From a virus, in IMG/VR virus record IMGVR_UViG_3300030116_003434, positions 1 through 22,895 of that record: a stretch of 22,895 nucleotides of DNA. One strand, written 5' to 3'. Each line of letters opens with the position of its first letter. Position 1 is the stretch's first letter. Of this stretch, positions 13,334-13,541 are shown piece after piece. The translations under genes and the position numbers were made by a program. Under the pieces are notes generated by a model, which saw only the letters and a program-made list of their open reading frames with translations, was not told the origin of the DNA and did not search any database.

Positions 13334-13379
13334 AAAACCCCTGTCCTAATGATATTTATATTATATCATAGAACAGGGG
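13334..13379 (-). promoter_or_regulatory. Strong hairpin with U tail hiding the next ribosome binding site
   Basis: On the minus strand CCCCTGTTCTATGATA (13379-13364) pairs with TATCATTAGGACAGGGG (13354-13338): 16 bp including one G-U, one bulged base, 9 nt loop, then TTTT. It reads as a Rho-independent terminator for RNA coming from the unit upstream. The 3' arm also contains the AGGGG ribosome binding site of the gene starting at 13328, so any RNA that reads through would have it sequestered. RNA started from the promoter within the hairpin lacks the 5' arm. Confidence 0.75.
13353..13360 (-). promoter_or_regulatory. Candidate T4-type late promoter TATAAATA in hairpin loop
   Basis: The octamer TATAAATA on the minus strand equals the T4 late consensus and overlaps the last base of the TATAAT box by one. 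It spans the loop and top of the stem of the hairpin at 13338-13379, and transcription would begin a few bases downstream, before the ribosome binding site. In an AT-rich genome an octamer can occur by chance, so the location is the main support. Confidence 0.4.
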
Positions 13380-13388
13380 AAATGTAAA
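13360..13388 (-). promoter_or_regulatory. Sigma-70-like promoter for the PhoH unit
   Basis: TTTACA (13383-13388) and TATAAT (13360-13365) on the minus strand are exactly 17 bp apart. The spacer is the 5' arm of the hairpin and the -10 reaches into its loop. Transcription would begin near 13353, giving a leader of about 25 nt with the AGGGG ribosome binding site free. Confidence 0.75.
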
Positions 13389-13391
13389 CAA

Positions 13392-13541
13392 TTAAATTGA
13401 GGCTAGCCTTTCTTCTAAAAAGAGTTTCTTCTTTAAGAGTTTATGAACTCGATCTACCGACCCTCTTGACTTGAGTTTCTCTATAAAGGAATTCAATTCA
13501 ATAATGTCGTTGCGTAGTCTTTCGAGTTGAACAGCTGGCAT
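13392..13541 (-). CDS. 49-residue coiled-coil microprotein
   Basis: The frame has a good ribosome binding site (GGAG, 7 bp before the ATG at 13541) and ends in TAA just upstream of the hairpin that closes this unit. The product, MPAVQLERLRNDIIELNSFI followed by a charged basic helix (DRVHKLLKKKLFLEERLASI), has leucine/isoleucine spacing expected of a coiled coil. A small DNA- or RNA-binding or oligomerising protein is plausible, but nothing specific is recognised. Confidence 0.65.
   Translation of the reverse strand: MPAVQLERLRNDIIELNSFIEKLKSRGSVDRVHKLLKKKLFLEERLASI

Follow-up and report, generated by a model that had tools for sequence, protein, structure and literature searches.

Why would the promoter of a phage gene be threaded through an RNA hairpin that also contains the Shine-Dalgarno (SD) sequence of that gene? 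The question is raised by a locus in the window, that is, the whole 22,895-nucleotide (22.9-kb) stretch of a virus fragment analysed here, which carries T4-like marine phage genes on its minus strand, including those for PhoH, a ribonucleotide reductase, and an Rz-like spanin. No close DNA relatives among named phages were returned by megablast. The gene behind the hairpin encodes a protein of the family phrog_624 (annotated as 'DNA binding protein'), and its match to PF03013 (pyrimidine dimer DNA glycosylase) scored 22.4 bits, below the curated cut-off of 23.

The first-pass annotation had described a TTTACA-17-TATAAT promoter that uses the 5' arm of a hairpin as its spacer and reaches with its -10 box into the loop, while the AGGGG of the downstream gene lies in the 3' arm, and both the geometry and the position of the SD were confirmed on the minus strand (Table 1). 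The stem had been drawn with 16 bp and a 9-nt loop; the helix stood, whereas RNAfold adds one terminal A-U pair and gives 17 pairs, one bulge, and a 7-nt loop for positions 13379-13338 (minus strand). Its minimum free energy was -23.0 kcal/mol, compared with -10.8 +/- 2.5 kcal/mol in shuffled sequences (z -4.8), and none of 200 shuffles was as stable; the nested hairpin is a real observation. The sequence is that of a strong sigma70-type promoter. Four exact TTTACA-N17-TATAAT sites were found in the window, each of them on the coding strand, which is far above expectation and indicates that the promoter class is real, and the spacing to the -10 box predicts an RNA start near 13353. The other three sites (minus strand, 16980-16952, 11358-11330, and 9964-9936) are not nested in hairpins, and the first of them immediately precedes the ribonucleotide reductase gene. 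No Rfam family was matched at the gathering threshold anywhere in the window.

Table 1. Elements of the hairpin-nested promoter and the adjoining genes in the window.
Feature	Position	Strand	Remarks
-35 box TTTACA	13383..13388	-	promoter class found 4 times in the window, 0.01 expected
-10 box TATAAT	13360..13365	-	TG upstream (extended -10); top of stem and loop
Spacer, 17 nt		-	between TTTACA and TATAAT; holds the hairpin 5' arm
Hairpin 5' arm	13363..13379	-	in the spacer and first -10 bases; fold, covariation of lower stem
Hairpin loop, 7 nt	13362-13356	-	
Hairpin 3' arm	13338..13355	-	one bulged U at 13349; fold, covariation
SD AGGGG	13342-13338	-	base of 3' arm, 9 nt before ATG
TTTT	13334..13337	-	directly after the stem; weak intrinsic-terminator tail
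TATAAATA	13360-13353	-	late-promoter-like box overlapping the -10 box; significance doubtful
Start codon ATG	13328-13326	-	start of the controlled gene
Controlled gene, 188 aa	12762..13328	-	phrog_624, strong match
49-aa ORF (MPAVQLERL...)	13392..13541	-	directly upstream of the hairpin

The frequency of such nesting was compared with chance by counting strong nested hairpins, defined as those with at least 12 pairs and an energy of -16 kcal/mol or lower that enclose the -10 box, against controls in which spacers and downstream parts were re-paired among sites. In a clean, unselected viral scan for GTTTACA-N14-TGNTATAAT, 5 of the 146 listed sites were nested versus 0.2-0.3 expected; a larger set of 216 sites (14 versus 1.1) was discarded, as its count was inflated by admixed loci from a CCTC-pattern scan. 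Among the viral scan matches listed for TGTACA promoters, 2 were nested versus 0.15 expected, and the excess among those listed for TTGACA promoters was weak (4 versus 1.15). The bacterial genome control gave 2 versus 0.9 over 115 mostly clostridial sites, and the nearest complete relative of the window, C48C1, showed no clear enrichment (2 versus 0.4 at -16 kcal/mol). With a loose promoter definition and plain pair counts no enrichment was seen below 15 pairs, and only energy-filtered stems stand apart from the controls.

The nesting is more frequent in the family of the controlled gene than elsewhere. Among the matches listed in the unselected scans, 6 of 21 phrog_624 promoters were nested versus 19 of 752 others (p 2e-5); an earlier count of 12/30 versus 34/968 was replaced because its set contained loci from the CCTC-pattern scan. 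In a sample of 187 distinct phrog_624 gene starts, a sigma70-type promoter lies no more than 60 nt away in 128, and 59 have none nearby. Of those 128, the nested hairpin was found in 41, with the -10 box 25-37 nt from the ATG and an SD in 40 of them; another 40 are near-leaderless, their -10 box standing 6-9 nt ahead of the ATG, and 39 of them lack an SD; and the remaining 47 show other layouts, mostly ordinary promoters. The nearest relatives of the window gene, approximately 78-80% identical, have the leaderless layout. The nested state switches 19 times along the protein tree, and supported branches force 11 of these switches; since block exchange together with a small upstream gene could explain many of them, no number of independent origins is claimed.

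The first-pass annotation had proposed a search for covarying stem changes in relatives, and strong covariation emerged in both of the alignable stem groups in which it was examined. In the first group, all 91 of 91 cells were paired, with 15 double changes versus 5.8 in shuffles and none when the arms were slid; in the second, 98% were paired, with 14 double changes versus 4.2 in shuffles and at most 2 when slid. A palindrome acting as DNA would yield roughly equal numbers of G-T and A-C mismatches between its arms. When Watson-Crick matches alone guided the alignment of the arms, 52 G-T and 2 A-C mismatches were counted in the 41 nested loci, whose choice by RNA energy favours G-U, and the ratio was still 70 to 7 after the addition of non-nested promoters with at least 10 matches. 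This excess indicates selection on the RNA of the gene strand, and both arms are present only in read-through RNA. By comparative sequence analysis, the element is a real, conserved RNA element.

These data bear directly on the proposal that the inverted repeat works at the DNA level as an operator covering the -10 box, bound by a repressor that might be the phrog_624 product itself. The symmetry is indeed centred near the -10 box, the family annotation would suit a repressor, the I-TevI protein represses its own late promoter in T4, and a protein-binding role has been proposed for the ESAS/SAS elements of cluster K mycobacteriophages (PMC3203893, PMC11373665). The latter resemble the present element in that a SigA-like promoter with 17-18 spacing lies in a 15-17 bp inverted repeat near an RBS-like start-associated sequence (SAS). 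However, the ESAS repeat is conserved in sequence within its phage group, the SAS is found on the downstream side of the repeat, and the authors of that work saw no support for RNA pairing in the departures from the repeat, whereas no 15-17 bp repeat is conserved between the phrog_624 sites, whose stems, all from one gene family, group into 17 sequence clusters. Together with the G-T bias and the fact that the SD position tracks the arm, this makes an operator very improbable. The design is conserved across homologues although the stem sequence is not.

Read-through RNA had been expected to hide the SD and sometimes to terminate, and RNA started in the loop, which lacks the 5' arm, to be free; comparative sequence supports this proposal through covariation, G-U bias, the place of the SD, T-runs, and computed SD accessibilities. 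In 39 of the 40 nested phrog_624 loci tested, the 3' arm encloses the SD core, which makes SD masking nearly universal among them. When the own-promoter RNA was modelled as starting 7 nt after the -10 box, opening the SD zone in nested loci was computed to require 15.1 kcal/mol in read-through RNA versus 3.9 kcal/mol in own-promoter RNA, the corresponding values for the window being 16.8 and 5.9 kcal/mol.

Termination at the stem is plausible in the majority of nested loci, judging from the T-run (four or more T among the 6 nt behind the stem) that follows it in 25 of 41 cases versus 8.5% in the background. The hairpin might thus be primarily the intrinsic terminator of the 49-aa gene, overlapped with the next promoter to save space, with SD masking as a by-product. 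Homologues of this small ORF (37-69% identity) precede phrog_624 in many viral contigs, and they are found upstream at all 41 nested loci, at 10 of the 40 leaderless ones, and at 19 of the 47 with other layouts; the hairpin and the small gene may be inherited as one block, and the presence of the gene at every nested locus allows such a terminator-first reading. Nevertheless, 16 of the 41 loci have no T-run, yet the SD core remains in the arm almost without exception; the T-run of the window is only 4 long, and a stricter terminator rule does not list its hairpin; and the comparable hairpin of T4 regB has no T-run. A hairpin serving chiefly as a terminator is therefore considered unlikely, and a search of the literature for overlaps between promoters and terminators turned up no relevant work. 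In three other contigs (L020, L024, and L013), ahead of the phrog_624 start, a terminator-like hairpin stands directly upstream of the promoter and its T-run adjoins or enters the -35 box, e.g., GGACTTAGTCCTTTACA in L024, which represents a second way to pack a terminator and a promoter together.

Geometry, promoter match, stem covariation, RNA-strand bias, SD placement, T-run enrichment, and recurrence are read from the sequences themselves, and they suggest that the element probably acts as a gate that makes translation of the phrog_624 gene depend on the promoter of origin, the start site, the timing, and the effects on translation and termination being predictions. Polymerase arriving from upstream genes would transcribe the whole inverted repeat, and the resulting read-through RNA would fold so that the hairpin buries the SD; where a T-run follows, the hairpin may also end the upstream message. 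A host-type (sigma70, early) polymerase at the threaded promoter would instead start RNA past the 5' arm, and since such a leader lacks that arm, no hairpin would form and the gene would be translated. Synthesis of the protein would then be confined to the period in which its own early promoter is active, and read-through RNA would not yield it.

The closest precedents are the late-promoter hairpins of T4 e, soc, 49, I-TevI, I-TevII, I-TevIII, and segB and of Aeh1 mobE (PMC2988022, PMC3014915), in which the promoter likewise lies inside an SD-masking hairpin and the own transcript lacks the 5' arm. Prediction and covariation point to the same two properties at the present locus, namely a stable hairpin by which the SD is masked on transcripts from upstream and a promoter so placed that its RNA, from the predicted start, omits the 5' arm. 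The difference is that the known promoters are late or middle ones and silence early read-through, whereas the window-type hairpin has a sigma70 early-type promoter with a 17-nt spacer as its 5' arm and often a T-run behind it. The gate would thus be the mirror image of that of e, soc, and I-TevI, and the element is most likely the early-promoter counterpart of the T4 late-promoter hairpins.

A late-type box overlapping the -10 box had also been noticed, and the octamer TATAAATA is present exactly there; the accompanying suggestion that early and late promoters share one hairpin, from which the own-promoter RNAs of both would escape, was not borne out as a conserved feature, the box occurring in 1 of 41 nested phrog_624 loci, the window itself. 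In its favour, in C48C1 the box occurs 20 times on the coding-rich strand versus 3.0 in shuffles (3 versus 2.8 on the other strand) and precedes structural genes, which makes it a plausible late box, and over all promoters it accompanies 4 of 57 nested versus 10 of 1109 other sites (p 0.004), although two of those four are close relatives. In the window, however, it occurs twice versus 1.4 expected, so that the box alone is not beyond chance, and AT-rich loops invite chance matches. A hairpin shared by both promoter types is weakly supported, and such a double arrangement is quite unlikely. In two related phages (L070:3062 and L080:2391) a nested promoter stands before another gene, and there one base more or less separates the -10 box from TATAAATA with both boxes intact (TATAATATAAATA, TATAATTATAAATA).

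An early-type box inside a hairpin is not peculiar to this phage: the early genes of T4 itself show the nesting. Eight of 36 early-type promoters of T4 are nested versus 0.07 expected, and by position in the gene table of the record they precede alc, alt.-3, regB, dmd, mobD.2, ipII, 30.7, and motB; a shorter nested hairpin lies upstream of cd.2, where the record annotates the early promoter Pe133295. The sites of regB, alc, and alt.-3 match the locus in the window in that the spacer of an early-type promoter is the 5' arm, the -10 box crowns the stem, and the 3' arm carries the SD; they differ from it by the absence of a T-run. The regB hairpin is kept with changed stems in four genera (Tequatrovirus, Mosigvirus, Gelderlandvirus, and Dhakavirus), while in Gaprivervirus MN01 a regB stem as in T4 was not seen. 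In dmd, cd.2, and 30.7 the SD lies outside the stem. On the minus strand of NC_000866, near 20588, 57966, 129895, and 133307, early promoters are centred in near-perfect inverted repeats (dmd, mobD.2, 30.7, and cd.2) whose stem stops before the SD and is followed by no T-run, and these repeats are explained neither by SD masking nor by a terminator. In the T4 reviews consulted, the promoters associated with SD-masking hairpins are all late or middle ones, and the regB promoter is treated as a typical early one. Nesting of early promoters, of which the accessible T4 reviews make no mention and which subscription papers on T4 early promoters may mention, is new relative to those reviews.

The leaderless layout of the family resembles leaderless phage mRNAs, in which translation is also tied to the gene's own promoter, and differs from the nested one in having neither hairpin nor SD. 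Both layouts may answer one need, that read-through RNA stay untranslated, and both would be expected to make translation depend on the promoter of the gene itself; the ordinary layouts and the genes with no promoter nearby indicate that the gate is not needed everywhere. Whether a gate of this kind, built from an SD-masking hairpin or a leaderless start, is widespread in early phage genes, T4 takeover genes like regB and alc among them, and has for the most part escaped notice appears to us evenly balanced. If so, early genes would be translated only from their own early transcript and be silent on later read-through RNA, which would extend the textbook device of T4 late-gene silencing to the opposite problem and confine possibly harmful early genes to the first minutes of infection. 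The gate predicts which read-through messages stay untranslated, with T4 regB, alc, and dmd accessible for tests, and it would provide a compact natural part linking translation to promoter of origin as well as a signature by which early genes of uncultured phages could be recognised from sequence.

Finally, in the viral contig scans (L085-L541), the spacing between strong sigma70-like -10 boxes and the ATG was bimodal, with a main peak at 25-35 nt accompanied by an SD and a second one at 6-7 nt mostly without an SD (63/631), which suggests that phages commonly have leaderless early genes.
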